Origin: Clostridia bacterium
GTDB taxonomy: Bacteria > Bacillota > Clostridia > Oscillospirales > CAG-272
NCBI GenBank assembly: GCA_017398585.1
Contig: JAFQFS010000049.1
Coordinates: 1 to 58,374, forward strand
Direction of reading: 5' to 3'
Length of the DNA: 58,374 bases
Shown: positions 11,404 to 46,060 of the stretch, piece by piece
Layout of the letters: each line of letters opens with the position of its first letter
Numbering within the stretch: the stretch's first letter is position 1
The notes under the pieces: model-generated
Told to the model about the DNA's origin: nothing
What the model saw: the letters and a program-made list of their open reading frames with translations, nothing else
Database searches by the model: none
Made by a program: the position numbers and the translations under genes

Positions 11404-11408
11404 AAACG

Positions 11409-24001: not shown

Positions 24002-24170
24002 AAATCCTCCCTGCTGCAAAGCAGCTGTATATCGTGTACATACACGATTTGTCCGATTCATTGAAGTATTCGACGGGCTGTCAGCGGCAGCTCGCTCACC
24101 GGACGCTGCCGGAATACAATACAGATAACGCGGAACCATCCGCAATAACCGACAGATCCGTAACAGTTAT

Positions 24171-24302
24171 ATTATATCACAGAATCCCACGGTTTGTAAA
24201 CGAAAATGTTGATAAATTATAATTTTCTGCCATATGCATAAAAAAATTCTGTGAATTTCCGACAGTTTACCAATTGCAAAAACAGAAAATCCGTGTTATA
24301 CT
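24171..24302. promoter_or_regulatory. Divergent promoter pair of leader element copy 1
   Basis: Leftward: TTTACA (24200-24195) and TATAAT (24176-24171), spacer 18. Rightward: TTGCAA (24274-24279) and TATACT (24297-24302), spacer 17. The leftward one serves the solute-binding gene, the rightward one the leader and PHP gene. Confidence 0.7.
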
Positions 24303-24333
24303 ATAGTTACCAAAAGGAAGAGAGGTTTAAAAG

Positions 24334-24360
24334 ATGTTAGATATCAAGAATTTCAAGTGA
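24334..24360 (+). CDS. Leader peptide MLDIKNFK, copy 1
   Basis: Eight codons and TGA. GGAAGAGAGG lies eight bases upstream. The stop codon falls within the first bases of the hairpin arm. Amino acids are the same as in copy 2. Not known to me from any described attenuator. Confidence 0.6.
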   Translation: MLDIKNFK

Positions 24361-24447
24361 CCCTTGACTGCAGTTTGTGAAGAAAGATTGCGGTCAAGGG
24401 TCACTCTGATTTTATCGGTATCTTTCTCCGGATATCCGGAGTTTTTT
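24357..24447 (+). terminator. Leader hairpin and attenuator-like terminator, copy 1
   Basis: Arms GTGACCCTTGACTGCA (24357-24372) and TGCGGTCAAGGGTCAC (24389-24404) form 16 pairs, one a wobble, with a 16-base loop GTTTGTGAAGAAAGAT. Then comes CTCCGGAT/ATCCGGAG followed by six T (24426-24447). Confidence 0.75.
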
Positions 24448-24510
24448 GTTGTTCGGGCGGCATAGGAACGGTACCGCTCAGGGAATCATCCGATACAGGA
24501 GGAAAAAAGA

Positions 24511-25182
24511 ATGTACAAATATGACCTGCACGTGCATACAAAGGAAGGAAGCGCCTGCGGCAGAAGCACGGGTGCTGAGATGGCGGAAATGTATGCAAGA
24601 GAAGGATACAGCGGATTTGTTGTAACGGACCATTTTTACACAGGGAACACGGCGGTACCGCGGGATCTTCCGTGGGAAGAATGGGTGGAACGGTTCTGTG
24701 AAGGTTATCGGAGTGCGAAAAGACGGGGAGACGAACTTGGTCTGGACGTATTTTTAGGATGGGAATTCGGGCTTGGCGGCGGCACAGAGTTTCTGACGCT
24801 CGGGCTCGATCAGAACTGGCTGCTCGCCAACCCCGACGTACGCCGCATGGACCCTGTGACATACTGTACAAAGGTGCATGAGGCCGGCGGGTACCTCATC
24901 CATGCCCACCCCTTCCTTGAAGCATCGTATGTCCCCTGCATCCGTCTCTTTCCCCGCCTTGTGGATGCCGTGGAAGTGCTCAACGCTCCCAAAGGAGACT
25001 TCATCAATGCGCGGGCGACCGAATACGCCCTCGCATATGACCTTACCCGGACCGCCGGCAGTGACAGCCACAACGATCGCTGGCATGCACTCGCCGCCGT
25101 TTCCGTCCCGTGCCGAGCGTCTTCCATCACCGATCTCATTTCTGCCCTACGTAACCGCGAACATTCACTGATTCAGTTGTGA
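24511..25182 (+). CDS. PHP domain phosphoesterase
   Basis: 223 residues with AGGAGG upstream. The four PHP metal motifs are present: D-L-H-V-H-T at the N-terminus, T-D-H-F after a short strand, I-H-A-H-P in the middle and A-G-S-D-S-H near the end. This is the trinuclear metal centre of PHP phosphoesterases such as histidinol phosphatase and nucleoside phosphatases. It lacks any polymerase or DNA-binding part. It is expressed behind leader element copy 1. The substrate is unknown. Confidence 0.85.
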   Translation: MYKYDLHVHTKEGSACGRSTGAEMAEMYAREGYSGFVVTDHFYTGNTAVPRDLPWEEWVERFCEGYRSAKRRGDELGLDVFLGWEFGLGGGTEFLTLGLDQNWLLANPDVRRMDPVTYCTKVHEAGGYLIHAHPFLEASYVPCIRLFPRLVDAVEVLNAPKGDFINARATEYALAYDLTRTAGSDSHNDRWHALAAVSVPCRASSITDLISALRNREHSLIQL

Positions 25183-25288
25183 GAAGCAGTGGAACACAAC
25201 TTTTATGAACGATGAAGGATCTCCATCCTTGGAATTCACCGGGAACCTGTAATCGTTGTTCTTTCCCCGAACATTTGAAATCATAAAT

Positions 25289-25325
25289 CAAGCCGCTGAC
25301 ACAGATGGTCAGCGGCTTGTCTGAT
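25289..25325. terminator. Bidirectional terminator between the PHP and SGNH genes
   Basis: Arms CAAGCCGCTGAC (25289-25300) and GTCAGCGGCTTG (25308-25319), perfectly complementary, between convergent genes. Confidence 0.85.
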
Positions 25326-25331
25326 TGATCT

Positions 25332-26006
25332 TTACTTATTGACGATTCCGAGGATATAGTCGGTCTTTTCCCTATCCAGTTCCGTAAAGACAAGGTCTTT
25401 GTTTACTGTATTGCGCCCGTTTTCGTCATTGACATGGAAGTTGATCCCCATACCGCTGACATCCTCGGAAACTCTGCCGGTCAGCAGCCGGCAGAATACT
25501 GCGGCGATCAGGAAGTCGCCGTACGGACCGGCGTGCTCGCCGTCGGTATGATACAGTTCGATATCCGGACGGGTCTGCCAGACTTCCTGCCATACACGTC
25601 CGATGGGAGCGAGCAGTGCATCGTTATCCCCTGCCAGTTTCTCGCAGGTATCGATCATTTTCTGCTGATTTTCAGGGAAACGTTTTTCCGCCCATGTCAT
25701 ATACACCACCGGCTTCACACCGCAGCGATGACAGATGTCAATAATCTCTGCGCCGGTTTTCAGCGTGGTCTCGACGGGCGGATACGGATGGGCCGCCTGC
25801 TGCAGAACACAGTAATCATAACCGCCGTACATCAGGTTAAAACGCAGGGACGTATATTCTCTGAGATGCCAGTCGTAATCACGCCCGGGATAAGCAAGCA
25901 TTACAACCTCGGGTTTCACGCCGGTCGTTTTCTCCGCAAAACGCGCAAAAAGTTCCGGCATATCGTTGACATATGTATGGCTGTTGCCGACAAACAATAC
26001 CTTCAT
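25332..26006 (-). CDS. SGNH/GDSL-like hydrolase (DUF4886-like)
   Basis: 224 residues. Block I is V-G-N-S-H-T (Ser9 nucleophile). The late block H-T-D-G-E-H-A-G-P-Y-G supplies the Asp-x-x-His pair. This is the DUF4886 layout of SGNH esterases, which often deacetylate glycans. No signal peptide is seen; the N-terminal strand begins the fold directly. It is convergent with the PHP gene and divergent from the DUF6259-like gene. Confidence 0.8.
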   Translation of the reverse strand: MKVLFVGNSHTYVNDMPELFARFAEKTTGVKPEVVMLAYPGRDYDWHLREYTSLRFNLMYGGYDYCVLQQAAHPYPPVETTLKTGAEIIDICHRCGVKPVVYMTWAEKRFPENQQKMIDTCEKLAGDNDALLAPIGRVWQEVWQTRPDIELYHTDGEHAGPYGDFLIAAVFCRLLTGRVSEDVSGMGINFHVNDENGRNTVNKDLVFTELDREKTDYILGIVNK

Positions 26007-26190
26007 GGATTCACACTCCTGCTCACAAAAAATTATCGCATATCAAACCGAACCTATGCAATGGGATGAAATTATTGTAACAGAGGATTCCGCAAAGGTC
26101 AACGCTCATTCTGCACATAAATCCCGGAATCCCGGCGGATATTTCTGTACACTTCAGAGACATCCGGACTGTTTTTTCTTACAACCTTTG

Positions 26191-26219
26191 TTGAATTTGC
26201 GAAAGTTTTGTGCTATACT
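26191..26219 (+). promoter_or_regulatory. Promoter of the DUF6259-like gene
   Basis: TTGAAT (26191-26196), 17-base spacer, TATACT (26214-26219), 71 bases before the ATG. The spacer end TTGTGC is like that in the leader element promoters. Confidence 0.65.
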
Positions 26220-26290
26220 GTAACAAAGTAAACCGTCAGAATTTTTCCCGGACCGCTGAGATTTTATAAATATTTGATGAGGAATACCAT

Positions 26291-28306
26291 ATGATCCTTA
26301 CTTTTGAAAAAAATTCATGGACACTTGCCATGTCCGTCACAGATTCCGGTATCTCTTTTGAAACCGGCCGTTTCGGTGGACTCACCGTCCTTCCCTCTCC
26401 CGTTTTCCATCTGAAACTGGAGAACACCTCCGGCAGAAGGTTTACGCTGGATTCTTCTTCCGGATGGAACAGCGTAACCTGTATCCGGGAGGAAACCTCC
26501 ATAACATTCCGGCTGACCGCACCGGCACAATGCGGAGATCTCACCGTTGTTGTCACAGGACACACGGATGACTGTGGAATCTCATGGTACACCGATGTAA
26601 TCAACCGATCCGATACCTGTTCCGTCGCCGAAATCACCTATCCGGTTCCGGCAGTGAAGAGCGACGTGCTTCACCTCTTCCTCCCGGACTGCTGCGGACG
26701 GGCGATCATGAACATCGGCAAAGACGGTTTCCGCCGATCGTACATGTATCCCGGTCACAATATGTCCATGCAGTATTTCGCGTGGTGGGGGAACAACGGC
26801 GGGATCTATCTCGGCGTTCACGATCCCGATGCCTGCATGAAAACCTTTACCGTACATGCGGGAGAAAACGAAGGGCATCTGCAGATCGGATTTCCAGCCA
26901 TCGGTGTCGGCTGTCCCGCCAACTCCTTCACTGCTGCCGGATCCCTCCGCTGGGAAGCGATTTCCGGCGACTGGTACGATGCTGCCATGCGGTATGCCGC
27001 ATTCGTCCATACCTCTGCAAAATGGCTGCCGGTAAAAGGACGTCCCGACACGCCGCAGAAGTTCCGGGAGATCCCGTACTGGATCTGCGACTATATCCCG
27101 AATTCCGAACAGCAGATGGAAGCGCGTCCCATGACCCTTGCCAGCGTATCGGAACAGTACGGAAAAGATTACTGGACCGATGCCGCCATCGCACTGAAAA
27201 AACGTCTCGGCACTCCGGTGGCATATCATATCTACAACTGGCATGAGATTCCCTTCAACATCAATTACCCGCATTTTCTGCCCGCACGGGACACTGCGAA
27301 AAAAGGCTTTGACAAACTGAAGGAAGCCGGACTGTACCTTTTCCCGTACATCAATGCGGTAAGCTGGGAAATGGACGATGCTGACGAAGGATTCGAAGAA
27401 AACTTCACAAACACCGGTATCCACGGCGCCGTTCTCAAGGAAGACGGTACTCCCATGTATATTCCATATCCGCAGGTCAAGGCAAGCGGAAAAGCCACAC
27501 GTCTCGCGCCTATCTGCCCTTCTTTCCTGCACTGGCACAGGATCATTGAGGATGTCACCCGCGGGCTCGAAGCTTCCCTGCCGGTGGACGGGATCTATTT
27601 CGATCAGGTATCCGCGGTACCGCCGCATCCCTGCCGGAATCCGGAACACAGCCATCGTCCCGGCGGCGGCAGTTACTGGTCGGACGGGTACAACCGGATG
27701 ATGGAAAAAATTAACGCATCCAAACCGGCGGATAAATTCTATTTCAGCGAATCCAATGCGGAAGCCTACATGAAATCCTTCGACGGATTCCTGACATGGG
27801 TCTGGACCATGGGCGACGATGTGCCCGCCTTTCCAGCTGTCTATGCCGGATACATCCAGATGCTCGGCCGGTACACCGACGGTGCCAAGCGGGACGATGA
27901 TGTCTATTTCCGCTATCATCTGGCGGAATCGCTTCTGTTCGGCCAACAGCTCGGTTGGCTCAACGCCTATGTGGTTTACAAAGAAGAGCGAATGCGTTTC
28001 CTGGAAACGATCGTACATACCCGGTACCGGTATACAGCGCTCTTCAACGAAGGCAGACTGCTCCGTCCTCCGCAGGCGGAAACGGAAGTTCCGCCTGTCA
28101 CGTCCTCCGGCATCACCATGCGGCAGGTTCTTTCCGGCGTATGGCAGACGGATGACCGTTCGGAAACCGTACTGTTCGTAATCAATATTTCCAACCGGCC
28201 GGCGGATGCGGTTCTGCATCTGTATCCCGAAGAATACGGTGTTTCCTGTCCCTCCGAATATCGCGTATCGCTGGAACCGATGTCGGTTCAGGTGATTGAA
28301 CTATAA
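26291..28306 (+). CDS. DUF6259-like glycoside hydrolase-like protein
   Basis: 671 residues. An N-terminal beta-sandwich (to about 230) leads to a TIM-barrel region (about 270-560) with Y-H-I-Y-N-W-H, Y-L-F-P-Y-I-N-A, G-I-Y-F-D-Q-V-S-A and F-Y-F-S-E-S-N-A-E, which are acidic groups at strand ends as in retaining glycosidases. A short C-terminal beta-domain closes it. The layout fits large proteins called DUF6259, distantly related to endo-alpha-N-acetylgalactosaminidase folds. It has no signal peptide. Family call moderate, substrate unknown. Confidence 0.6.
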   Translation: MILTFEKNSWTLAMSVTDSGISFETGRFGGLTVLPSPVFHLKLENTSGRRFTLDSSSGWNSVTCIREETSITFRLTAPAQCGDLTVVVTGHTDDCGISWYTDVINRSDTCSVAEITYPVPAVKSDVLHLFLPDCCGRAIMNIGKDGFRRSYMYPGHNMSMQYFAWWGNNGGIYLGVHDPDACMKTFTVHAGENEGHLQIGFPAIGVGCPANSFTAAGSLRWEAISGDWYDAAMRYAAFVHTSAKWLPVKGRPDTPQKFREIPYWICDYIPNSEQQMEARPMTLASVSEQYGKDYWTDAAIALKKRLGTPVAYHIYNWHEIPFNINYPHFLPARDTAKKGFDKLKEAGLYLFPYINAVSWEMDDADEGFEENFTNTGIHGAVLKEDGTPMYIPYPQVKASGKATRLAPICPSFLHWHRIIEDVTRGLEASLPVDGIYFDQVSAVPPHPCRNPEHSHRPGGGSYWSDGYNRMMEKINASKPADKFYFSESNAEAYMKSFDGFLTWVWTMGDDVPAFPAVYAGYIQMLGRYTDGAKRDDDVYFRYHLAESLLFGQQLGWLNAYVVYKEERMRFLETIVHTRYRYTALFNEGRLLRPPQAETEVPPVTSSGITMRQVLSGVWQTDDRSETVLFVINISNRPADAVLHLYPEEYGVSCPSEYRVSLEPMSVQVIEL

Positions 28307-28384
28307 ATCCTGCACGCAAAGCCGTACAAACCGAAAAGGAAACCATATGCATGTTCTGCGGCAATATAAACGCAGGCAAATAAA

Positions 28385-29446
28385 CTATGTCGTTCCGTTC
28401 AATATCATTTCCCGGATCCATGCAGCGGACGGTGCCATCTCCGGATCATCCTCAATGTCGGTAAGCATCCGTCCGGCGGTTTCGAGCATATATGCATCAT
28501 TTACCGGCTTCGGCGTTTCTCCGACAAACCGGACATAATTGCTGCGGCAGATCTTTCTGACCGTATCGTCGGACAGTGCCAGACCTCTGATCCTGTGCTT
28601 CCATACCGGCATCGGGAATTCGCTCCTGTCGTGCGTGATTGCCGTGCGGACAAGATCGACCAGATCTCCGTTGATTGTTTTGCCGTCGTTGGAATCCGTT
28701 CCGAACATGATCCGGTCCGAATATTTTTCAAAGAAATCATGCCATGCGTCAATGTCCTTTGAGAATCCGAGGTACATTTCCCAGCCGGGCGTAAGGTCAA
28801 AATTCACGTTTTCATAAGTCTCCATGACCCGTCTGGCTTCCTCGATCTTGTTGGACAGGAAGAAGAAATGAGCAAAGGTCACTCTCAGCTTCGGATGCTT
28901 TTTCAGCATCTCAAAGCATTCCTCGTAGATTTCATCACAGGAAAGGTGCGTACCGTCCCCGTAGAACCAGCCGTACCGGATCTCATCTTCCGTCATAAGA
29001 TCCCGGTTCCAGAACGTCTCTGGGTCACCCGAATGAATCAGGGCGGGGGTTCCGCGTTCCTCCATGACCGAAAGCACCCGGTCGTAGGACGCATCGTTCA
29101 GACCTTTGCCGAGTGCTTTTCTCCGGTCGGGCTTCATCTGAATGAATTTTATGCCGTCGCAGCCGAGATTCATCAGATTTTCGTACTGCTTTTCGTAGGG
29201 GATATCCCGGTAGATATCGGCTTCGTGAAAGCATCCGAAGGCACGGACGCTCATTCTCCGGTAATTCTTCTTCCAGTACAGGACACGCAGATTGGTTACG
29301 ATATCCGAAAACGGCATATAGGCAAGCAGAGATACATCCGTCACGCCTTTGTCTGCAAGGCTGTCCAGCATGATCCGGGGACTGTCAAATTCCCCGATCA
29401 CAACATCTTCCAGATGTACATGCCCATCGGCAATGCGGTAATCCAT
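28385..29446 (-). CDS. Amidohydrolase family (amidohydrolase 2) metal-dependent hydrolase
   Basis: 353 residues. The metal barrel shows D-G-H-V-H-L at the N-terminus, I-H-S-G-D in the middle, F-A-H-F-F-F, and M-F-G-T-D-S-N-D late; the second His of strand 1 and the late Asp are the usual metal ligands. Relatives include ACMS decarboxylase-like and lactonase-like enzymes. It follows the DUF362 gene by 39 bases on the minus strand and is likely co-transcribed with it. A tail after the motif of about 90 residues is predicted helical. Confidence 0.8.
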   Translation of the reverse strand: MDYRIADGHVHLEDVVIGEFDSPRIMLDSLADKGVTDVSLLAYMPFSDIVTNLRVLYWKKNYRRMSVRAFGCFHEADIYRDIPYEKQYENLMNLGCDGIKFIQMKPDRRKALGKGLNDASYDRVLSVMEERGTPALIHSGDPETFWNRDLMTEDEIRYGWFYGDGTHLSCDEIYEECFEMLKKHPKLRVTFAHFFFLSNKIEEARRVMETYENVNFDLTPGWEMYLGFSKDIDAWHDFFEKYSDRIMFGTDSNDGKTINGDLVDLVRTAITHDRSEFPMPVWKHRIRGLALSDDTVRKICRSNYVRFVGETPKPVNDAYMLETAGRMLTDIEDDPEMAPSAAWIREMILNGTT

Positions 29447-29485
29447 AAAAATCCTCCTCGATCGTTTTACAGTTCCGGCTTTGCG

Positions 29486-30349
29486 TTACACTTCCACGAG
29501 GTTGTATTCCCGGCTGCCGTACCCCAGTGCGGCGGCAGCTTCAATGGTATGCACCCCGTTGCGGCTTTCGATCCGTTCGATCAGATGGGGTCTGCCCGGA
29601 TCGGAGCAGGTATAAACCAGATCGATGCAGGCCTGATCGATGGCAACCGGGTCCGTGGAAACGAGAATGCCGATATCCGCGATGCAGGGATCTTCCGCTA
29701 CCGCGCAGCAGTCGCAGTCCACGCTCATGTTCTTCATTACGTTTACGTAAACGATGTTTCTCTTGAAGAATTTCACCACGCTGCCTGCCGCATCCGCCAT
29801 GGCTTCCAGGAAGGAATCGTGGTCGGCCGTCCAGATCTTTGCCGGTTCGCCCGCACCGTGGATATATGCCTTACCGAAAGAAGACGCACAGCCGATGGAC
29901 AGCTGCTTCAGCGCACCGCCGTAGCCGCCCATGGGATGCCCCTTGAAATGGGACAGTACCAGCATGGAATCGTAATTTGCGATATTTTTGCCCAGATAAT
30001 TCTTCTGAATGACCCTGCCGTCCGGAACAGCGATTTCCAGATCCGGACCTTCGGCGTCCAGCAGGTCTACCTTAAAGCAGCTGCTCCAGCCGTGATAAGC
30101 AAAAAGTCTGCGGTGCTTGGCAGTGGTGTTGCGTTCCCCCTCATAGGCGGTGTTGCATTCCACAACAGTGCCGCCCACATGGTCAATGACCGGCTTCCAG
30201 AATGCGGGCTTCAGGAAATTCTGATTGCCCTTTTCACCGGAATGGACCTTTACTGCCACATTGCCGGTCAGTTCCTTTCCTGTCAGCTGATAAAGCTCCA
30301 GAACCTTTTCGGGTGTGATCTCTCTGGAAAAATAAACGGTTGCGCTCAT
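29486..30349 (-). CDS. DUF362 domain protein (putative iron-sulfur protein)
   Basis: 287 residues from the ATG at 30349, chosen because AGGAGG lies seven bases upstream. It has the DUF362 pattern: V-A-V-K-V-H-S-G-E-K-G-N near residue 30, L-S-H-F-K-G-H-P-M-G-G-Y-G-G-A-L-K in the middle and a D-C-D-C-C cluster followed by D-P-C-I-A-D-I-G. These proteins are linked to Fe-S or redox maturation, but their activity is not known. The extra ferredoxin domain found in many DUF362 proteins is missing here; only the Cys cluster is left. It shares a promoter and unit with the amidohydrolase. Confidence 0.8.
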   Translation of the reverse strand: MSATVYFSREITPEKVLELYQLTGKELTGNVAVKVHSGEKGNQNFLKPAFWKPVIDHVGGTVVECNTAYEGERNTTAKHRRLFAYHGWSSCFKVDLLDAEGPDLEIAVPDGRVIQKNYLGKNIANYDSMLVLSHFKGHPMGGYGGALKQLSIGCASSFGKAYIHGAGEPAKIWTADHDSFLEAMADAAGSVVKFFKRNIVYVNVMKNMSVDCDCCAVAEDPCIADIGILVSTDPVAIDQACIDLVYTCSDPGRPHLIERIESRNGVHTIEAAAALGYGSREYNLVEV

Positions 30350-30402
30350 GGTTGATCCTCCTTGATAAAATAGTGCAGTAATGTACGTATTGGTTTGTAT
30401 TA

Positions 30403-30431
30403 ATCGTACCGCATACAACAGATTTTGTCAA
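30403..30431 (-). promoter_or_regulatory. Promoter of the DUF362/amidohydrolase unit
   Basis: TTGACA (30431-30426), 17-base spacer, TACGAT (30408-30403) on the minus strand. GTACG and CGTAC half-sites about 15 bases apart overlap the -10 region and could be an operator. Confidence 0.6.
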
Positions 30432-30505
30432 TACGTCCGCCGGGATTTTGCAGGATGAAAAATTCACATTTCTTTTGTGAAAACTCCCCAATATTTCTTT
30501 TTATT

Positions 30506-30534
30506 ATTGACACAGTCAATGTTTTCATATATAA
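30506..30534 (+). promoter_or_regulatory. Strong promoter of the LamG operon
   Basis: Consensus TTGACA (30506-30511), 17-base spacer, TATAAT (30529-30534), with a leader of about 80 bases and AGGAGG before the ATG at 30621. Confidence 0.85.
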
Positions 30535-30620
30535 TAGAGTTGAGTTAATATACAATATACGATGAATATCTGTTTTTGTACATTAAATCGATCTTTTCCT
30601 AATCTCAGGAGGTTAATTTT

Positions 30621-32429: not shown

Positions 32430-32466
32430 GAATTCACGGAAAGAAATTTCAATACAATAACGGATT

Positions 32467-34203: not shown

Positions 34204-34239
34204 TACGAACCGAAACGACGAATGTCAGAAAGTTATTCT

Positions 34240-35718: not shown

Positions 35719-35730
35719 ACCGAATTTTTC

Positions 35731-35769: not shown

Positions 35770-35803
35770 ATCCGGCGATCCGGACAAAATCCGTACGGAC
35801 CGC

Positions 35804-35832: not shown

Positions 35833-35862
35833 ATTCTCAAATCACAACAGAGAGGTATCTCC

Positions 35863-37221: not shown

Positions 37222-37233
37222 AAGGAGCCGTTC

Positions 37234-37965: not shown

Positions 37966-38005
37966 AAACGAAAATATGAACTTGCTCCTTGTTCGAAAAA
38001 AGTGA

Positions 38006-38029
38006 GGGTCTGTCAGAAACGACAGGCCC
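38006..38029. terminator. Hairpin at the left end of leader element copy 2
   Basis: GGGTCTGTC and GACAGGCCC pair with one wobble. On the minus strand the sequence TCAC and six T follow (38005-37996), so it can end the leftward transcript about 40 bases after its start. On the plus strand it may end the DUF5131 transcript. Confidence 0.6.
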
Positions 38030-38040
38030 GCAACAGTTTA

Positions 38041-38172
38041 ATTATACCACAGAATCCGCGTTTCTGTAAAGTCTTATTGATCGAAAGTTGAAATTTCTGC
38101 GTACTGCACAGAAATTTCCTGTGGATTTCTTACAACTTACCGATTGTATTTATGAAATTCCTGTGCTATAAT
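38041..38172. promoter_or_regulatory. Divergent promoter pair of leader element copy 2
   Basis: Leftward: TTTACA (38070-38065) and TATAAT (38046-38041), spacer 18. Rightward: TTGTAT (38144-38149) and TATAAT (38167-38172), spacer 17. Between them lies a perfect inverted repeat, GAAATTTCTG (38090-38099) and CAGAAATTTC (38109-38118). Confidence 0.75.
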
Positions 38173-38318
38173 GTAGACACAAAAGAAAGAGAGGAACACT
38201 CCAATGTACGAATAAAGTACAGGACTTATTAATATAAAAAAACAAGTCCGGTGAACCGAAAAGCGTCCCCTGAAATAACATCGTCAGCGGACAGTCAGCA
38301 GAAAGAGAGGATAAAAAG

Positions 38319-38345
38319 ATGTTAGATATCAAGAATTTCAAGTGA
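38319..38345 (+). CDS. Leader peptide MLDIKNFK, copy 2
   Basis: Eight codons and TGA, with AGAGAGG seven bases before the ATG. The last codon and stop lie at the foot of the hairpin arm. Confidence 0.6.
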   Translation: MLDIKNFK

Positions 38346-38436
38346 CCCTTGATCGTGTTTGTGAAGAAAGATACGATCAAGGGTCACTCTGATTTTGACC
38401 GGTATCTCCCCCTCTTTCCGGATCGCCGGATTTTTT
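38342..38436 (+). terminator. Leader hairpin and attenuator-like terminator, copy 2
   Basis: Arms GTGACCCTTGATCGT (38342-38356) and ACGATCAAGGGTCAC (38373-38387), 15 perfect pairs, loop of 16 bases as in copy 1. Then TCCGG-ATCG-CCGGA and six T (38417-38436). Confidence 0.75.
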
Positions 38437-38491
38437 ATTTTGAACTTCCGACACCGTTCTCACGGTATTCCATACAGAAAGGACCCGCATT

Positions 38492-39829
38492 ATGGCTAAA
38501 AAAATCGTATTCATCGGTTCCGGCAGTCTGGTCTTCACGCGGAATCTGGTTCGTGATCTCCTGACGTTCGAAGCCTTCCGCGACGCGGAAATCGCACTTG
38601 TCGACATCAATGAAACCAACCTTGCTCTTTCGAAAAAAGCCGTAGACGGCATCGTTGCCGCCGGCAATTATCCCGCAAAGGTCACCGCAACAACCAACCG
38701 CCGCGATGTGCTCGCGGGAGCGGACGGGGTAGTCACCACCATTGCCGTCGGTACCAACCGCGATTTCTACAACGACATCGCTATTCCGTCAAAATTCGGG
38801 CTGTCCATCAACGTCGGGGATACCCGGGGACCGTCGGCGATTTTCCGCTTCCTCCGTACCCTTCCCCCGATGCTCGCAATCCTCCGCGACATGGAAGAAC
38901 TCTGCCCGAATGCGCTCTGGCTCAACTACACCAATCCCATGGCAATGCTCTGCCGTGCCCTGCAGGGCAGTACCGACACCGTTGCCATCAGCGGACTCTG
39001 CCATTCCGTACAGGGAACCGCCGCTATGCTCTGTCGTTTCATCGGCGCACCGCAGGAAGAAGTCACCTATGTCTGCGCCGGCATCAACCATCAGGCACAT
39101 TACATCAAATTCGACTGGAACGGAAAGGATGCCATCCCGCTCATCCGCAAGGCAATCACGGAGCGTCCCGAGATTTACAACGAGGAGCAGGTACGCAACG
39201 AAATGTTTCTGCATCTCGGCTACTATGTCACCGAATCCAGCGGACACAACAGCGAATATACCTGGTGGTTCCGCAAGCGTCCCGACCTGCTCGAAAAATA
39301 CTGCACACACGGCACCGGATGGAATCCCGGTCTCGACTGTCTGCCGCGCAAGGAACTGTCCAAGGATGAGACCACCGAGGAGCGCCACATCCGCGAATTC
39401 GGCAATTTCAAGGCGGATGAATTCCCGCTCACGAGAGGTCAGGAATATGCCGCGTATATCTTCAACGCCTGCTTCGGCGATCACACCATGTTCCACTTCA
39501 ACGGCAATGTCCGCAACTTCGGACTGATCGACAATCTCCCCTACGGATGCTGTGTCGAAGTTCCCGTACTGGCATCACAGCGCGGGCTTGAACCGATCCG
39601 TGTCGGCGCACTGCCTCCGCAACTTGCCGTACTGAACAATCTGTCCGCCGGATGCGAAGAACTGGCGGTGGAAGGTGCGCTGGAAGGAGATCCCAGAAAG
39701 ATTTACCACGCGTGTCTCTACGACCCGATGACCGCCACGGCCTGTTCCATGGCGGAAGTCGAAGACATGGTCGCACAGCTCTTCGAGGCAAACCGCGACT
39801 GGCTTCCGAATTTCAGACATTTCAACTGA
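38492..39829 (+). CDS. GH4 family alpha-galactosidase/6-phospho-glycosidase
   Basis: 445 residues with GAAAGGAC upstream. The N-terminal Rossmann fold (G-S-G-S-L-V-F) binds NAD. V-G-D-T-R-G-P-S-A-I-F-R, N-Y-T-N-P-M-A-M, G-L-C-H-S-V-Q-G-T and A-G-I-N-H-Q-A-H are the GH4 motifs; Cys and His in the latter two bind the Mn2+ needed by the redox-assisted mechanism. The absence of phosphate-binding Arg/Ser patterns cannot be judged by eye, so alpha-galactosidase (MelA-like) is preferred only by overall likeness. Its promoter is in leader element copy 2. Confidence 0.9.
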   Translation: MAKKIVFIGSGSLVFTRNLVRDLLTFEAFRDAEIALVDINETNLALSKKAVDGIVAAGNYPAKVTATTNRRDVLAGADGVVTTIAVGTNRDFYNDIAIPSKFGLSINVGDTRGPSAIFRFLRTLPPMLAILRDMEELCPNALWLNYTNPMAMLCRALQGSTDTVAISGLCHSVQGTAAMLCRFIGAPQEEVTYVCAGINHQAHYIKFDWNGKDAIPLIRKAITERPEIYNEEQVRNEMFLHLGYYVTESSGHNSEYTWWFRKRPDLLEKYCTHGTGWNPGLDCLPRKELSKDETTEERHIREFGNFKADEFPLTRGQEYAAYIFNACFGDHTMFHFNGNVRNFGLIDNLPYGCCVEVPVLASQRGLEPIRVGALPPQLAVLNNLSAGCEELAVEGALEGDPRKIYHACLYDPMTATACSMAEVEDMVAQLFEANRDWLPNFRHFN

Positions 39830-39834
39830 AAATC

Positions 39835-39871
39835 AAAACCGGGTTATCCGTTGAACGGATAACCCGGTTTT
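39835..39871. terminator. Bidirectional terminator after the GH4 gene
   Basis: AAAACCGGGTTATCCGTT and AACGGATAACCCGGTTTT are perfect complements around one base; A and T tracts flank it, and the two genes converge. Confidence 0.9.
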
Positions 39872-39879
39872 GTGCGTTC

Positions 39880-40899
39880 TTATACCGGATACACGATCTC
39901 CACCGGCTTGCCGGTCTCGGCGGATTCCACCACCGCACGGCAGACCGCAACCGTACGTGCGCCTTCCGTACCGGTCGTGACAAGCGGAGTGCCGTACAGA
40001 ACCGCTTCCCGCAGGAGACGGTGTTCCTCCATCACGTTGTGGTTGTTGATCTCCAGCGGGATCTTCGTCAGAACGGAACTTCCGTCCGGATGCAGCTGAT
40101 ACAGATCCAGCACCGGATCGGTGTTGTTCACGATGATCGTCCCTCTGGTTCCGTACAGGACAGTGCGCATGGTATAGTTGCGCTTGCATCCGATCGACGT
40201 AAAGACCTTTCCGATGACCTGATCCGGGAACCGGAAGATCGCCACCGTCGTGTCATCTACCGGCCAGTCCGTCAGCACCTTATGGTTGCTGTATGCCGTG
40301 GTGTCCGTGGGATCGCCCGCGATCCAGCGGAGCAGGTCGATCGCATGGCATGCACCGCCGATGATCGGTTCCCGGTCGGGATCGACGCGCCAGTTGTCCA
40401 CGCCTTTGATGTTCGTGTAGTCGTGGGCATATTCGCTCTCCGCGAAATACAGCTCACCGATCGAACCGTTTCCCACGAGTTCCTTCGCCTTCACGAATCC
40501 CGGTGCACAGCGGCAGACCTGTCCCACCATCAGAAGGAGGCCTTTTTCCTCTGCCTTCTTCACCATTGCCGTGCATTCCTCCGTGAAGAGGGACATCGGC
40601 TTCTCGCACATGACATGGAATCCGGCTTCAAGCGCGGCAAGTGTAACCGGACAGTGTGCTTTATCGGACGTGACGACATCCACAATGTCAATGTTGTCCT
40701 TTTCTGCCGCCAGCATTTCACGGTAATCCGTGTAACACGGCACATCCAGTCCGAACCGTTCTTTCAGCCGTTCGCAGCTTTCCGGATGAATGTCGCACAG
40801 AGCCACGATCTTCGTTCCTTCCAGTTTTGTCAGCACATCCAGATGCACGCCGCCGAAGCTGCCGCATCCCACCAGTGCGTAACGCAGTGTCTTTTCCAT
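39880..40899 (-). CDS. Gfo/Idh/MocA family oxidoreductase
   Basis: 339 residues with GAAGGAGA upstream. Rossmann motif V-G-C-G-S-F-G-G near the start, the E-K-P-M-S signature after V-M-C, and the C-terminal domain with G-G-A-C-H-A-I-D-L-L-R-W holding the catalytic His. NAD(P)-dependent sugar or inositol dehydrogenase type. It is divergent from the hydrolase at 41195; both promoters face away from the same 300-base gap. Confidence 0.9.
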   Translation of the reverse strand: MEKTLRYALVGCGSFGGVHLDVLTKLEGTKIVALCDIHPESCERLKERFGLDVPCYTDYREMLAAEKDNIDIVDVVTSDKAHCPVTLAALEAGFHVMCEKPMSLFTEECTAMVKKAEEKGLLLMVGQVCRCAPGFVKAKELVGNGSIGELYFAESEYAHDYTNIKGVDNWRVDPDREPIIGGACHAIDLLRWIAGDPTDTTAYSNHKVLTDWPVDDTTVAIFRFPDQVIGKVFTSIGCKRNYTMRTVLYGTRGTIIVNNTDPVLDLYQLHPDGSSVLTKIPLEINNHNVMEEHRLLREAVLYGTPLVTTGTEGARTVAVCRAVVESAETGKPVEIVYPV

Positions 40900-40989
40900 A
40901 ATTTTCTCCTTCCGGTGTTTTATAAGACGCTTGCTGTTTGTCTGTTTTGTGAATCTGCTCTTTTATAGTTAAAAGATTTCTTATCTTAT

Positions 40990-41018
40990 ATTATAGCAGG
41001 AAACGCACCCGGTTTCAA
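40990..41018 (-). promoter_or_regulatory. Promoter of the Gfo/Idh/MocA gene
   Basis: TTGAAA (41018-41013), 17-base spacer, TATAAT (40995-40990), about 90 bases before the start codon. Confidence 0.8.
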
Positions 41019-41063
41019 GATTATCTGCACAAAACGATGCACCTTCCTCTCCCTGCACTGTGC

Positions 41064-41092
41064 TTGACACCTGTTTTCCGGTATGATATAAT
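41064..41092 (+). promoter_or_regulatory. Promoter of the 41195-43149 unit
   Basis: Consensus TTGACA (41064-41069), 17-base spacer, TATAAT (41087-41092). The start point should be close to 41099. Confidence 0.85.
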
Positions 41093-41163
41093 AGCTCCAT
41101 CCCGTACATCTGTCCGATAAGAGCACATGCCATACCGCCGGAACGCTCTCCAGGAGGTGTACA

Positions 41164-41301
41164 ATGATAGAACAAAAAAACACGGAGACAAACCATGCTG
41201 TACCACGCAAAAGAACATCGGTTGATGCTTTCCGACCTGCAGATGGACTATATTACATTCGGTCTCGGAAAAAAAACGCTGATCATGATCCAGGGACTTA
41301 A
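41164..41301 (+). CDS. Possible upstream overlapping small ORF (45 codons)
   Basis: Frame with AGGAGG (41152-41157) six bases before its ATG, the best ribosome binding site in this leader. It overlaps the hydrolase gene out of frame for 107 bases. The product is very basic and looks like nothing known, so a real protein is doubtful. It may still draw ribosomes and modulate the main gene. Confidence 0.3.
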   Translation: MIEQKNTETNHAVPRKRTSVDAFRPADGLYYIRSRKKNADHDPGT

Positions 41302-41992
41302 TACCCGCGGGATCAAAGGTGCTGCCCCGTCCCTTGCCTGGATGTATCGTATCTTTGCAAAGGATTACCGGGTATATCTGTTTGACCGCCGGCCGGTCGT
41401 ACGGGAAGGGATTACAGTGAGAGATCTGGCTTCGGATGTTGCCGCCGCCATGGATGCCCTCGGTATCACAAATGCGGACGTATTCGGTGTTTCACAGGGC
41501 GGTATGATTGCCCAGTACCTCGCTATTGACCGTCCCGATCTGGTAAAGAAACTGGTTCTTGCCGTAACGCTTTCCCGAAACAACGATACCGTGAAGCAGG
41601 TCATCGGACGATGGATCGAACTGACCGAACGGAACGCCATGAAGGAACTCATCGCAGATATGGCGGAAAAAATGTACTCCGATGCCTATGTGAAACGATA
41701 TCGTCCGTTTCTGCCGCTGCTGACACTTCTGCAGAAGCCAAGGGAAACGGAGCGGTTCATCCTGCTTTCCCAAGCCTGTCTGACATGCGATGCTTATGAA
41801 TCCCTGCACAGGATCAGGTGCCCCGTTTTCGTCATCGGCGGACGGCAGGATCGTGTGGTAAGCGGTAAGGCTTCGGAAGAAATCGCAGAAAAACTGAGAT
41901 GTGACCTCTTCCTGTACGATCATCTGGGACATGCCGCCTACGAAGAAGCGGGCGATTTCAATCAAAGAGTATACGATTTTCTGATCGGATAA
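41195..41992 (+). CDS. Alpha/beta hydrolase
   Basis: 265 residues with GGAG eight bases upstream. The nucleophile elbow is G-V-S-Q-G-G-M (Ser100), in a normal place after D-V-A-A-A-M-D-A-L-G. A late acid (V-I-G-G-R-Q-D) and His (D-H-L-G-H-A-A-Y) complete the triad of the 3-oxoadipate enol-lactonase/haloperoxidase type. The oxyanion region after strand 3 is I-Q-G-L-N rather than H-G. It heads a unit with a methyltransferase and a monooxygenase. Confidence 0.85.
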   Translation: MLYHAKEHRLMLSDLQMDYITFGLGKKTLIMIQGLNTRGIKGAAPSLAWMYRIFAKDYRVYLFDRRPVVREGITVRDLASDVAAAMDALGITNADVFGVSQGGMIAQYLAIDRPDLVKKLVLAVTLSRNNDTVKQVIGRWIELTERNAMKELIADMAEKMYSDAYVKRYRPFLPLLTLLQKPRETERFILLSQACLTCDAYESLHRIRCPVFVIGGRQDRVVSGKASEEIAEKLRCDLFLYDHLGHAAYEEAGDFNQRVYDFLIG

Positions 41993-42017
41993 ACAAAACA
42001 AAATAAGGAGGAAAAAA

Positions 42018-42782
42018 ATGGAATTCCGAAGAGTGTTTGACACCATCCCCGAACAATTTGACCGGTACAGACCCCGTTATTCCGCGGAATTGTTTGAAGC
42101 ACTGATTGAATTTGCAGAAATCGGTCCCGGGAAATCCGTGCTGGAACTTGGCCCGGGTACCGGACAGGCAACGGATCCGGTTCTCCGTACGGGCTGTGAT
42201 TACCATGCCATTGAACTTGGCGGGAATCTGTTTGAAATGATGAACCGCAAGTACGGTGCGTATCCGAACTTCCATATTGTGAACGATGATTTCATCACTC
42301 ACGATTTCGGAAACCGGAAATTCGATATGATCTATTCTGCCGCAACGATCCAGTGGATTCCGGAGGAAATCGCCTTTTCCAAGACCTTTGCTCTCCTGAA
42401 ACCCGGCGGAACACTGGCAATGATGCTGACCAAAGGCGATTACCGGACACCGAACGAAGAGCTGTACCAAAAAATACAGAAAGTATACTCCGCTTATTTC
42501 AAACCGGAAACCGAATACAAACACGTGGCATTCCGGTACACCAATGCAGTGGATTACGGATATACAGACTTCGAAAAACGGGAATTTCATGGAAAGCGGG
42601 AATTCACGGCGGAGGAATATGCGGCGTTCTGCGGAACACACTGCGATCACATCGTGATCCCGGAACCGTACAAAAGCAAACTGCTCGACGGGCTGAGAGA
42701 AACCGTACGGGAAGCGGGGAACAAAATCGTGTTCCACGATACCTTTGTCCTGTATCTGGCAAAAAAGCCCTGTGACCGGTAA
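42018..42782 (+). CDS. Class I SAM-dependent methyltransferase
   Basis: 254 residues with AAGGAGG upstream. Motif I is V-L-E-L-G-P-G-T-G-Q-A, motif II/III region includes I-V-N-D-D-F and F-D-M-I-Y-S-A-A-T-I-Q-W-I, and a P-G-G-T-L-A-M strand follows, the pattern of small-molecule methyltransferases. It is 25 bases after the hydrolase and before the monooxygenase. The substrate is unknown. Confidence 0.9.
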   Translation: MEFRRVFDTIPEQFDRYRPRYSAELFEALIEFAEIGPGKSVLELGPGTGQATDPVLRTGCDYHAIELGGNLFEMMNRKYGAYPNFHIVNDDFITHDFGNRKFDMIYSAATIQWIPEEIAFSKTFALLKPGGTLAMMLTKGDYRTPNEELYQKIQKVYSAYFKPETEYKHVAFRYTNAVDYGYTDFEKREFHGKREFTAEEYAAFCGTHCDHIVIPEPYKSKLLDGLRETVREAGNKIVFHDTFVLYLAKKPCDR

Positions 42783-42822
42783 CACAGAAGACAGAAAATC
42801 CGAATCGGAAGGAGAAACAGAA

Positions 42823-43149
42823 ATGGCAATCACCATAAACATCTATTACACCGGAGCGGAAGGAAATGCACGGAAATTTGCCGGCGAAATGATTTCCCGC
42901 GGGATCGTTGACGAGATCCGCCGTGAGGAAGGAAACCTCCGGTACGAATATTCTATTCCGATGGATGACGCAGCAAGCATCCTGCTGATCGACAGCTGGA
43001 AAGATCAGGCGGCGCTTGACCGGCACCACAGAACCCCGATGATGGCACAGATCGTCGAACTGCGCGAAAAATACGGTCTGCGCATGAAGGTGGAACGTTA
43101 TGTTTCGGAAGAACTCCCCCATACGGACCGGCAGTTCATCCGGGAGTAA
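42823..43149 (+). CDS. Antibiotic biosynthesis monooxygenase (ABM) domain protein
   Basis: 108 residues from the ATG at 42823 (GGAAGGAGA upstream). Small ferredoxin-like alpha/beta fold with I-D-S-W-K-D-Q-A-A-L-D-R-H-H and the final beta-strand, as in YgiN-type quinol monooxygenases. Often takes part in cofactor-free oxidation or stress response to quinones. Last gene of the unit from 41064. Confidence 0.85.
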   Translation: MAITINIYYTGAEGNARKFAGEMISRGIVDEIRREEGNLRYEYSIPMDDAASILLIDSWKDQAALDRHHRTPMMAQIVELREKYGLRMKVERYVSEELPHTDRQFIRE

Positions 43150-43187
43150 CGGTATTCACGGAACCGGATATACCGGACAAACATGCA

Positions 43188-43209
43188 GGCCTGTCGCAAA
43201 CGACAGGCC
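43188..43209. terminator. Hairpin between monooxygenase and glycyl radical enzyme
   Basis: GGCCTGTCG and CGACAGGCC, 9 pairs, loop CAAA. It resembles the hairpin at 38006-38029 together with the bases that follow (CCGCAGCATTTA versus CCGCAACAGTTTA), so it may be a fragment of the leader element's left end. Confidence 0.65.
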
Positions 43210-43238
43210 CGCAGCATTTATTCTGGTTACAGTGCTTC

Positions 43239-45539
43239 TTAAATCGTCCGGTGCTTCGTCCGCGCGATGATGTGATCCTGCAGAGGTTTACCGATCAGAG
43301 AGAACCGCTGGCTGAATCCGGAAACGCGCACCGCAAGATTCGGATGCTTTTCCGGATGCTTCTGTGCGTCGATCAGAGTCTCGGCATCCGCGATGTTGAA
43401 CTGTACGTTCGACAGCCCCATCATCGCCGCCGCACGCATCGCATCGGTCAGATACGGCAGATTCCGTTCACTGAACAGCTGCGGCTCGATCTCTACGATC
43501 GCGGAGGTGGTACCGGGGGTACGTCCGGTGGGAAGACAGCAGAGCGAGTGCATGAGAGCGGTCAGTCCGCTGAAGTCCCGTCCCTGCATGGGCGACATGC
43601 TGTACGCCATGATCTCCCCTTTTCTCCGTCCGTCCGGAGTTGCGGCGGTATTGGCTCCGAATTCGATCATCCAGAGATAGGTGAACGGCTGTGCGTGAAG
43701 CGCAATACCGTATTTTTTCTCCATTGCTTCAATGCAGTCACAGGCATAGGAAACGATGTCCGACGCCAGTTCGTCCACTTCAGCGATGCCGTTGCCGTAT
43801 TTCGGCACCTTGCTGACCCATTCCACTCGCTGTGCTTCGTCCGGGAAATTTTCTTCAAGAACAGTTTTCATCTCCGTCAGACTCAGCGACTTCTTGCCGT
43901 ACACATAGTCTTTCACAACCATCAGGGAGTCCGCAAGATTCGGCACACCCATAAGCATCATCTGATACGTATCGTACCGGCATCCCGCATCGTTGAAATC
44001 CCGTCCGGATTCCAGACAGCCTTCGGACAGCAGAGATTTCACCGGTTTCGGCCGGTATTTTCCGAGAGGGCAGGAACGTTTCAGCATTACTGTCGTCCGC
44101 TCGATCATGTGGGCAATCTGCGCTTTCACCGCATCGTAAAACGAGTCAAACGTCGGGAACTGCCCCAAATCACCGGTATCGACGCCGGGAAGCAGCTCCG
44201 GTTTCATCAGGCTGTGTCCCCTGCCGAACGTATATTCCAGACATTTCAGCAGGTTGCAGCGGGAAGTCACCGCATGGGGATTATGTTTCCCGGGAATCAC
44301 TGTTTCCACACAGCCGATCTGGGTATAATCACAGGCATCCTCATGGGAGATCCCGACTCTTTCGAGCGCGGGAATCATCACGTCGTCGTTGAAGAAGAAC
44401 GGAACGCCCTTCTGTACATGTCCCGCAACGTCCAGTGCTCTCTGCAGGAACGCTTTGTCTGTGGAAGCACCGTAACGGACGGAAAGACAGCGGATGAAAT
44501 CGAGCTGCTCCGTCGCATCCAGCATCAGCCAGGACAGTTCGTTGACAGCACTGTTCCCGTCCGGATCGGTTCCGCCCACGGCGGACTGCTGCACATCGTA
44601 ATTCCGGTACAGTTTGATCCAGAGGCATTGGATCAGTTCCGCAGCGTCTTCCTTTGTCAATACGCCGGCGTCGATGTCGTTCCGGTAGAAAGGATACAGA
44701 ATCTGATCGAGTCTGCCGACGGAATTGGCGTTGATACCGTCTTCAAACGTATTGAGAATATGGGAAAACCATACAGTCTGCACCGCCTGACGGAAGTTTT
44801 TCGGCGGATGGACGGCGATCCATGCACAGTCAGCGGCGATCTGCTCCAGCTCGGCTTTCCGTAAGGGATCCGATTCTTCCGCCGCCAGACGCGCGGCTTC
44901 CGCACCGTACCGGCGCATGAATGTTCCGAAGGAACAGCATACCCGTTCGCAGGCATCGTACAGCGGGAGATCACCGTTGATGTTGCGGAAGGACGCGATC
45001 TTATCGAGAAGTCCCTCCACGCCGAGCGTCAGCACCATATTGTAGCCGATTACGGAATGGTTGTCGGCAATGATGTGTCCGCAGGCGGAAAAATCCTCGA
45101 GGATCGCCTTGTCCTCCGGGGTTTCCCAGCAAGCCCACAAACCCCAGATGGGGATCGCCTGTTCCTGCGGCGGCACCGAGACCTTTGATGACGCACGTCC
45201 GCGGTTGGTGATGAACCATTCCATCTCCGCTTCCGTCAGCATGGAAAACGGCTGCAGGCGGCGGAGGGTATCTTCGTCCTGCCAGGTTTCCTCCATATTT
45301 CCGTCGGCGAAATTGTAACCGACAATCCGTTCGCCTTCAAAGATGAGGGGACGGATATTTTCAAGGACAGAACAGAGTCCCGCAGAAATGCATTCCATCC
45401 GTCCGGCAGATTCCTCACAGGAGAGGACGCCGCGGTAAAACCAGTAATCGCGCTGGGCAAATATTTCCGGACTGTATTGATTGGCAACGGCTGCTTCCCT
45501 GAGCTTCGCCGTACGCTCCGTGATCGGATAAATCACCAT
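43239..45539 (-). CDS. Glycyl radical enzyme (pyruvate formate-lyase/dehydratase type)
   Basis: 766 residues from the ATG at 45539 with GGTTGGAG upstream; frame continues to 45620 without a site. The catalytic thiyl cysteine is Cys410 in Q-I-G-C-V-E, the motif of dehydratase-type enzymes such as glycerol dehydratase. The glycyl radical loop near the C-terminus is R-V-S-G-F-S with Gly741; the family more often has R-V-x-G-Y. No radical SAM activating enzyme stands beside it. It is oxygen-sensitive by family rule, which fits an anaerobe. Its promoter is the leftward one of leader element copy 3. The substrate is not predictable. Confidence 0.85.
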   Translation of the reverse strand: MVIYPITERTAKLREAAVANQYSPEIFAQRDYWFYRGVLSCEESAGRMECISAGLCSVLENIRPLIFEGERIVGYNFADGNMEETWQDEDTLRRLQPFSMLTEAEMEWFITNRGRASSKVSVPPQEQAIPIWGLWACWETPEDKAILEDFSACGHIIADNHSVIGYNMVLTLGVEGLLDKIASFRNINGDLPLYDACERVCCSFGTFMRRYGAEAARLAAEESDPLRKAELEQIAADCAWIAVHPPKNFRQAVQTVWFSHILNTFEDGINANSVGRLDQILYPFYRNDIDAGVLTKEDAAELIQCLWIKLYRNYDVQQSAVGGTDPDGNSAVNELSWLMLDATEQLDFIRCLSVRYGASTDKAFLQRALDVAGHVQKGVPFFFNDDVMIPALERVGISHEDACDYTQIGCVETVIPGKHNPHAVTSRCNLLKCLEYTFGRGHSLMKPELLPGVDTGDLGQFPTFDSFYDAVKAQIAHMIERTTVMLKRSCPLGKYRPKPVKSLLSEGCLESGRDFNDAGCRYDTYQMMLMGVPNLADSLMVVKDYVYGKKSLSLTEMKTVLEENFPDEAQRVEWVSKVPKYGNGIAEVDELASDIVSYACDCIEAMEKKYGIALHAQPFTYLWMIEFGANTAATPDGRRKGEIMAYSMSPMQGRDFSGLTALMHSLCCLPTGRTPGTTSAIVEIEPQLFSERNLPYLTDAMRAAAMMGLSNVQFNIADAETLIDAQKHPEKHPNLAVRVSGFSQRFSLIGKPLQDHIIARTKHRTI

Positions 45540-45659
45540 AAACTCCAACCTTTCTTCCCGCCGGGGATATGTTATATATAAAATCTGTACCGGGCGGTAC
45601 AGCAGATGTTTTACGGACAAAGCGGATCCGATGAATATCAGCAGACCCGCAACAGTAAT

Positions 45660-45791
45660 ATTATACCACAGATTTTCCGGTTCTGTAAAGACTTATTGAC
45701 CGAAAGTTGAAATTTCTGCGTACTGCACAGTTTTTTTATGTGAACTTCTGACAACTTACCGATTGCTTTTATGAAGTTCCCATGATATAAT
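45660..45791. promoter_or_regulatory. Divergent promoter pair of leader element copy 3
   Basis: Leftward: TTTACA (45689-45684) and TATAAT (45665-45660), spacer 18. Rightward: TTGCTT (45763-45768) and TATAAT (45786-45791), spacer 17. Confidence 0.75.
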
Positions 45792-45939
45792 AGAGTCACA
45801 AAAGAAAGAGAGGAACACTCCAATGTACGAATAAAGTACAGGACTTATTATAAATAAAAAACAAGTCCGGTGAACCGAACAGCATCCCCTGTAATAACAT
45901 CGACAGCGGATAGTCAGCAGAAAGAGAGGATTACAAAAG

Positions 45940-45966
45940 ATGTTAGATACCAAGAATTTTAAGTGA
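45940..45966 (+). CDS. Leader peptide MLDTKNFK, copy 3
   Basis: Eight codons and TGA. Compared with copy 2 one codon changes the residue (ATC to ACC) and one is silent (TTC to TTT). AGAGAGG lies upstream. Confidence 0.6.
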   Translation: MLDTKNFK

Positions 45967-46060
45967 CCCTTGATCGTGTTTGTGAAGAAAGATACGATCA
46001 AGGGTCACTCTGATTTTATCGGTATCTCTCCCCCTCTTTCCGGATCGCCGGAATTTTTTT
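45963..46060 (+). terminator. Leader hairpin and attenuator-like terminator, copy 3
   Basis: 15 perfect pairs (45963-45977 with 45994-46008), same loop as copies 1 and 2, then TTCCGG-ATCG-CCGGAA and seven T (46038-46060). Confidence 0.75.

Follow-up and report, generated by a model that had tools for sequence, protein, structure and literature searches.

A 58,374-nt contig of a Clostridia bacterium (JAFQFS010000049.1; its whole length is referred to as the window) carries three similar intergenic cassettes, each in front of a rightward gene, and the question raised by this locus is whether the repeated sequence serves these genes as a leader or constitutes a gene of its own. A preliminary description had placed the copies at 24151-24447, 38006-38436 and 45642-46060, with a common order of divergent promoters, small reading frames, a long hairpin and a terminator. 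Re-reading of all three copies confirmed the positions and the order of the parts, and a conserved RNA element of this composition was recovered. In its full form the cassette consists of a leftward and a rightward promoter, a Shine-Dalgarno sequence (SD1) with a minigene of two to three codons (mini-ORF1; ORF, open reading frame), a middle domain, a second Shine-Dalgarno sequence (SD2) with a frame of eight to nine codons (mini-ORF2, or ORF2), a long hairpin (T1) and a second intrinsic terminator (T2). Judged from sequence comparison, the reading towards which we lean is that the cassette represents a stand-alone, multi-copy gene whose product would act in trans, and not a leader.

A 147-base query detected six copies in the source genome (G000) and matches in 13 of the 25 genomes of the genus; as the 3' module is found in this many genomes, the repeat lies far beyond chance. 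The source genome, whose assembly is 73.6% complete, contains at least seven cassettes with promoter signals, terminator signals or both. Outside the window, full copies are located on contigs C126 and C2; in addition, C111 ends in a 3' fragment, and C2 and C3 each end in a 5' fragment. The count is given as a minimum because the C111 fragment could complete one of the two 5' fragments. Contigs C2, C3 and C111 of this genome and contigs of G002 and G013 end within or right at cassettes. Copy numbers in metagenome-assembled genomes (MAGs) are underestimated, because the assemblies seem to break at these sequences. A pattern scan of named genomes yielded at least 117 stretches, and the 80 stretches listed all belonged to MAGs of Oscillospiraceae, Ruminococcaceae, other Clostridia and less defined bacteria. 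A set of 151 distinct cassettes (the cassette set) was assembled from this listing, the genus loci and the window. A covariance-model search, which the preliminary description had named as a check, was carried out with a model of the 3' module built from 73 sequences, and matches were obtained elsewhere in the source genome and in related genomes, beyond the one contig. Within the order, 45 of 295 genomes in 28 of 149 genera were matched, one of these genomes (G297) being doubtful on reading; the class sample gave matches in 20 of 391 genomes, the source genome included, and in the phylum sample the source genome was the sole match among 398. These genome counts are lower bounds, as the filters were strict and contig ends truncate several cassettes. 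Searches of viral contigs, phages and plasmids gave no cassette match, and carriage by phages or plasmids was rejected on this basis.

In 98 of 147 matches mini-ORF1 reads M-x-x-stop, and in another 10 it reads M-x-stop; the remainder have no ATG in place (26) or other lengths (13). ORF2 is 8 or 9 codons long in all but one of the 147 complete copies and ends in TGA (96), TAA (41) or TAG (10); its peptide follows the pattern MLDIKxxxK (MLDIKSEQK-like) or, in other lineages, MLEPxxxxK or MIEPKxxxK. Recoding of UGA to selenocysteine was ruled out by the presence of TAA and TAG among the stops. Because the search pattern partly imposes the ORF2 start, coding was judged outside the pattern-selected set, using 44 ORFs (38 distinct) from promoter-based or weak model matches; 50 loci were read, from which a script gave 38 ORFs and 6 were added by hand, with L151 and five others unused. 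For same-length pairs, which are not independent of each other, the synonymous share of differences in ORF2 codons 2-5 was 27%, compared to 6% and 7% in the other registers, and third codon positions varied most (628 differences versus 430 and 385). An [L/I/M]-[D/E] core near the start, present in 43 of the 44 ORFs, uses eight alternative codons for its first residue and all four GAN codons for its second, and here only the codon variety counts as evidence. The register test, the third-position variation and the codon variety lead us to conclude that the ORF2 peptide is probably translated and selected.

The stop codon of ORF2 is embedded in the T1 hairpin. In 143 of 151 copies a stem begins at this codon (the search was anchored there) with 10 or more of 12 pairs formed; its median length is 22 bp with the stop codon included, and a U-rich tail (at least 6 T in 8) follows in 110 of 143 copies. 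The base after the stop codon is C in 132 of 143 copies, which is a context of slow termination. In the window the long hairpins of the three copies fold with -35 to -38 kcal/mol (z = -8 to -10), a value that none of 200 shuffles equalled. Across the family, 19 of 21 T1 pairs change on both sides and 92.1% of cells are paired; none of 500 shuffles was as high on all five covariation measures, and when the partner was slid by 1-3 columns, 32-47% remained paired instead of 92%. The stop codon itself changes along with its stem partner, the second base forming GC in 42 and AU in 28 cases. The terminator T2 was found in 83 of 139 copies (under stricter rules in 74 of 143, versus 12 of 143 after shuffling), and its T-run begins 36-58 nt past the T1 stem in 68 of the 83. 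T2 accompanies a weak T1 U-run in 57 of 77 cases and a strong U-run in 26 of 62 (p = 0.0002), and therefore termination, not a choice of ends, looks like the selected property. A strong T1 tail or T2 was detected in 119 of 139 copies. The middle domain is the variable part, with 35 to 671 nt separating the ORF1 stop from the ORF2 start, and in 20 of 143 copies it has a long form that carries the motif ACGGYGGTG along with other conserved stretches.

A block of approximately 160 nt with two divergent -35/-10 pairs of the housekeeping type precedes 143 of 149 copies tested, as identified with an iterated profile. Among 57 aligned copies, the two -10 elements are separated by 119-123 nt in 41 and by 131-133 nt in 16, two spacing classes that differ by about one helical turn. 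Conserved motifs are located between the promoters (AATTTCTGnnnTTTnnACAAAA and TTTGTACAA, for example within window 38047-38166) and could be operators for a regulator. The leftward promoter is followed by an intrinsic terminator within approximately 125 nt in 88 of 136 copies, versus 8 of 136 after shuffling. No common sequence was seen among the leftward terminator hairpins, and this promoter seems to yield just a short terminated RNA without conserved sequence. A role in driving the left-hand gene was discarded, as lack of the terminator was not associated with a divergent left gene (p = 0.67). When a model was built from only the promoter block, with no ORF included, it gave 69 matches of at least 41 bits in 42 of the 295 genomes of the order, this cut-off having been picked after a score gap was seen. 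The 3' module was located on the same strand downstream of 64 of the 69 matches (63 within 625 nt and one at 1104 nt). Matches in G178 and G080 are accompanied by a divergent ORF and hairpin that were missed by the module model and read by eye, and three of the 69 run off their contigs; of the blocks that could be assessed, 66 of 66 lead to ORF2 and the hairpin. Conversely, a promoter-block match of at least 41 bits is missing at 8 of 72 module matches, a comparison from which 5 of 77 rows had been dropped (three opposite-strand hairpin echoes, G113:C27:53313 and the doubtful G297). With a threshold of E<=0.01, the promoter-block model passes 282 of the 295 genomes; five matches of 39-41 bits were read and lead to ordinary ORFs, and matches below approximately 41 bits are taken as AT-rich background. 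The real copy G113:C27:53313 scores 37 bits, and thus the cut-off loses some copies.

Taken as a gene, the cassette would be transcribed from its rightward promoter into a very small mRNA whose leader is structured. Ribosomes would load at SD1, where the minigene of two to three codons would retain a ribosome close to the 5' end, possibly stabilising the RNA; ORF2 would then be translated from SD2, and transcription would stop at T1, with T2 as a backup where the T1 U-run is poor. The apparent selection on ORF2 suggests that the peptide, either free or still in the ribosome, is part of the output, and the structured domain suggests the same of the RNA. The expected product is a regulatory RNA/micropeptide of dual function, encoded, as multicopy small RNAs (sRNAs) are, by several copies that can replace one another. 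We tentatively propose, as a possibility that may well need revision, that the cassettes form a new class of bacterial genes: a multi-copy RNA combining a minigene of two to three codons with a coding-selected peptide of 8-9 amino acids that ends in its own terminator, works on or through the ribosome (as a regulatory nascent peptide or a free micropeptide, with no operon attached), is paired with a dedicated divergent promoter making only a hairpin RNA and is spread over many families of Clostridia. If expressed, such genes would mean that unusually short peptides are under selection across many families of a bacterial class. Genes of 8-9 codons fall far under the ordinary size for gene calling.

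Several points weigh against a stand-alone gene. Mini-ORF1 is missing from some copies. The search pattern itself accounts in part for the near-invariant start of ORF2 among the 151 cassettes, and the Leu/Ile/Met-Asp/Glu core had been found by searching for just this motif. In L151 the ATG frame is out of register with the stop codon in the stem, and five further loci gave no ORF-plus-stem by script. The calls of neighbouring ORFs are crude. Scanning of the window revealed no consensus promoter between T2 and the PHP, GH4 and GHL6 genes to the right of the three copies, which is weak evidence, as the rightward promoters of copies 2 and 3 escaped the same scan. Finally, the patchy distribution and the lineage-specific positions of the cassettes would also fit a mobile repeat.

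The position of the window copies does agree with the attenuator or leader that the preliminary description had proposed, as the three rightward genes begin 61-69 nt past the first T of T2 without an intervening consensus promoter, and a local read-through or cis role at these three copies is possible. The proposal was not supported for the family. In 95 loci of named genomes, the right-hand ORF (by crude longest-ORF calls) is convergent in 59 and same-strand in 36, and 16 of these 36 have a consensus promoter between T1 and the ORF, compared to a shuffled mean of 7.0; two other copies of the source genome (L001 and L003) also seem, by eye, to have a downstream promoter. The neighbours share no function. 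Pfam searches of 95 right and 95 left neighbours (97 left neighbours had been called; L104 and L135 were left out) revealed no recurrent family, the best having 4 and 5 members, and the largest cluster of ORFs around the 151 cassettes comprised 9 loci, ABC-ATPase-like by eye; a linked partner protein was thereby rejected as well. No upstream antiterminator complementary to T1 was detected in 134 copies, the pairing energies being -12.2 versus -12.4 kcal/mol in shuffled sequences for the 5' arm and -13.3 versus -13.3 kcal/mol for the 3' arm. With convergent ORFs, own promoters and mixed neighbours, the role as a leader of the downstream gene was rejected for the family, the window copies apart, and a cis-acting leader or attenuator of the right-hand gene is considered quite improbable. 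A free-standing switch gated by translation would account for the start of the stem at the stop codon, the C that follows it and the regular distance of the T2 T-run: a ribosome at the ORF2 stop would open T1, and short (T1) and long (T2) RNAs would have differing functions. However, the higher frequency of T2 at weak T1 hairpins fits a backup, a strong T1 tail without any detected T2 is seen in 36 of 139 copies, and upstream complementarity to either T1 arm stays at the shuffled level, which makes this mechanism improbable. The divergent layout, with a leftward RNA that has its own terminator, is also reminiscent of a type I toxin-antitoxin pair in which the divergent short RNA silences the rightward mRNA. 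Yet the cognate duplexes, sampled in 60 of 138 copies, were no better than those of mismatched pairs (mean -30.4 versus -29.9 kcal/mol), on which ground an antisense role of the leftward RNA was rejected, and the peptide of 8-9 amino acids is charged (by eye) and not a hydrophobic toxin; such a pair is regarded as highly improbable.

The main competing explanation is a non-autonomous mobile or selfish repeat that would spread as one unit, insulated by outward terminators at its ends and tolerated because its neighbours are left undisturbed. It is in line with the several copies per genome, with the patchy presence in 13 of 25 genus, 45 of 295 order (the doubtful G297 counted) and 20 of 391 class genomes, and with the best-conserved pairs from the same genome, which are similar up to the cassette ends and then not; two copies in G015 that lie 2 kb apart are 95% identical over 419 nt. 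Gene conversion between old copies would nevertheless also confine similarity to the cassette. A glutamine synthetase gene (Pfam) adjoins a cassette in only two (G002 and G013) of 11 genus genomes in which the gene was matched; the cassette at this site is confined to these two species and the other flank is not syntenic. Positions held in common by species, at this gene and at the purE/TraX loci, speak against mobility: a purE-like gene lies to the left of the cassette in six MAG loci and a TraX-like gene to the right in five of those. At locus L147, a ZMP-ZTP riboswitch (3908-3988, minus strand) is located between purE (AIRC, Pfam) and the promoter block (4143-4310). A clean empty site was sought at a GH43 locus, where the locus turned out to be rearranged and none could be shown. 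When 27 copies from the genus were placed in a tree, 17 changes of genome label were needed; shuffled labels needed 20.8 on average, and none of 200 shuffles got by with so few. Copies cluster by genome in G000, G001 and G003 but not in G009, G017 and G004. Together with the positions common to sister species, the tree fits duplication plus gene conversion, and it fits slow transposition too. Further points against a mobile repeat are the coding-like variation of ORF2, the strong compensatory change in the T1 stem, the adherence of the promoter block to one of two spacings across the alignment and the absence of matches in viral contigs, phages and plasmids. Since no clean empty site was shown, the mobile repeat is retained as an unlikely explanation that has to be taken seriously.

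On the reading of the cassette as a stand-alone gene, its parts are assigned in the three window copies as follows. Copy 2 represents the full form. A leftward terminator hairpin with U-run (37996-38029, minus strand, by folding) lies just past the leftward promoter TTTACA-18-TATAAT (38041-38070, minus strand, by promoter scan); a hairpin at 43176-43219 is 77% identical to this terminator over 44 nt and lacks the rest of the cassette. All further elements of copy 2 are on the plus strand. The rightward promoter TTGTAT-17-TATAAT, with an extended -10 (38144-38172), was recognized by eye below the scan cut-off and is conserved. It is followed by SD1 (AGAAAGAGAGG, 38184-38194), the three-codon mini-ORF1 MYE* (38204-38215), a middle domain of the short form with GGACTT...AAGTCC and CGTCC...GGACAG helices seen by eye (38223-38297), SD2 (again AGAAAGAGAGG, 38300-38310) and mini-ORF2 MLDIKNFK* (38319-38345), which was assigned, as in the other copies, from the sequence and the ORF2 comparison. 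Folding placed T1 with its embedded stop codon at 38341-38388 and T2 at 38417-38436; 18 of 200 shuffles equalled the latter, for which the U-run is the stronger sign. Copy 3 is 88.8% identical to copy 2 in an alignment of 418 nt, in agreement with the similarity first noted. Its leftward promoter was found by promoter scan (45660-45689, minus strand), and the rightward promoter TTGCTT-17-TATAAT (45763-45791, plus strand, as are the following parts) is again conserved and was seen by eye under the scan cut-off. SD1 (45803-45813), mini-ORF1 MYE* (45823-45834), SD2 (45919-45929) and mini-ORF2 MLDTKNFK* (45940-45966) precede T1 with the embedded stop codon (45962-46009) and T2 (46038-46060, equalled by 8 of 200 shuffles). 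Copy 1 had been described as shorter but functionally complete, which did not hold, as mini-ORF1 and the entire middle domain are missing. In this short form the promoter directly abuts the second Shine-Dalgarno sequence and its ORF. The leftward promoter TTTACA-18-TATAAT, with TG before the -10, was found by promoter scan in the conserved block (24171-24200, minus strand), and the scan also detected the rightward promoter TTGCAA-17-TATACT (24274-24302, plus strand). SD1 is absent, and SD2 (AGGAAGAGAGG, 24315-24325), mini-ORF2 MLDIKNFK* (24334-24360), T1 with the ORF2 stop codon within (24356-24405, by folding and covariation) and T2 (24426-24447, by folding) follow on the plus strand.

Some further observations were made in the course of the analysis. 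The window contains at 15548-19197 (minus strand) genes for an M23 peptidase and a long right-handed beta-helix protein (both by Pfam) and, by eye, a small holin-like ORF without Pfam match; this stretch is possibly a prophage or lysis remnant. A 142-nt direct repeat (11263-11404 and 19632-19773, 89% identical) overlaps a cupin ORF (19437-19772). In G002, a different repeat of approximately 126 nt is 100% identical at several contig ends (contigs C31, C38 and C66), and it occurs once in G001. In two genomes (loci L046 and L069), a tRNA gene that has its own promoter-like site comes after the cassette; the tRNA is located at 7161-7234 in L069 and was identified by eye in L046.

The initial statement that the element corresponds to no known riboswitch, T-box or leader was upheld, as no Rfam 15 family reached its gathering score over the tested cassettes. 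The window itself gave no Rfam match. Among 18 loci only tRNA and Gut-1 were found, neither at a cassette, the Gut-1 RNA of L141 (6213-6282, minus strand) lying beside a tRNA approximately 1.7 kb from the cassette. Five genus loci searched at E<=10 had a best value of 0.54, with all matches under gathering, and six further loci contained tRNA, TPP and ZTP elements elsewhere and one T1 hairpin that matched a microRNA model far under gathering. The literature searched held no described equivalent; the cassette possibly has an entry in the catalogue of Fremin and Bhatt, which comprises thousands of structures from the human microbiome (PMC8040213).

Among known systems, the cassette comes closest to multicopy sRNAs and to attenuator peptides that act in trans. 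Listeria LhrC1-5 share with the cassette the several near-identical copies with own promoters and differ from it in their length of 111-114 nt and in binding their targets via CU-rich sites (PMC4132741). Unlike LhrC, the cassette has two conserved mini-ORFs with Shine-Dalgarno sequences and a coding-like change of ORF2. The peptide peTrpL originates from the transcription attenuator of trp genes. The work on Sinorhizobium rnTrpL/peTrpL describes an attenuator leader peptide that acts in trans, as is proposed for the cassette (PMC7298713). In contrast to peTrpL, the cassette is multi-copy and has no operon. Two-codon minigenes are exemplified by lambda bar. Another such minigene, mg2 of axe-txe, is similar in design to the M-x-x-stop of mini-ORF1, and its translation is reported to act in cis and possibly to protect the mRNA (PMC8708949). 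While mg2 precedes a toxin gene, the RNA of the cassette minigene has one other conserved frame, of 8-9 codons. Pneumococcal BOX, RUP and SPRITE elements resemble the cassette as dispersed intergenic repeats with stable RNA folds, SPRITE having an 18-bp terminator-like stem (PMC3049150). Unlike these repeats, the cassette combines conserved divergent promoters with a coding-like peptide and has members in many families of its class.

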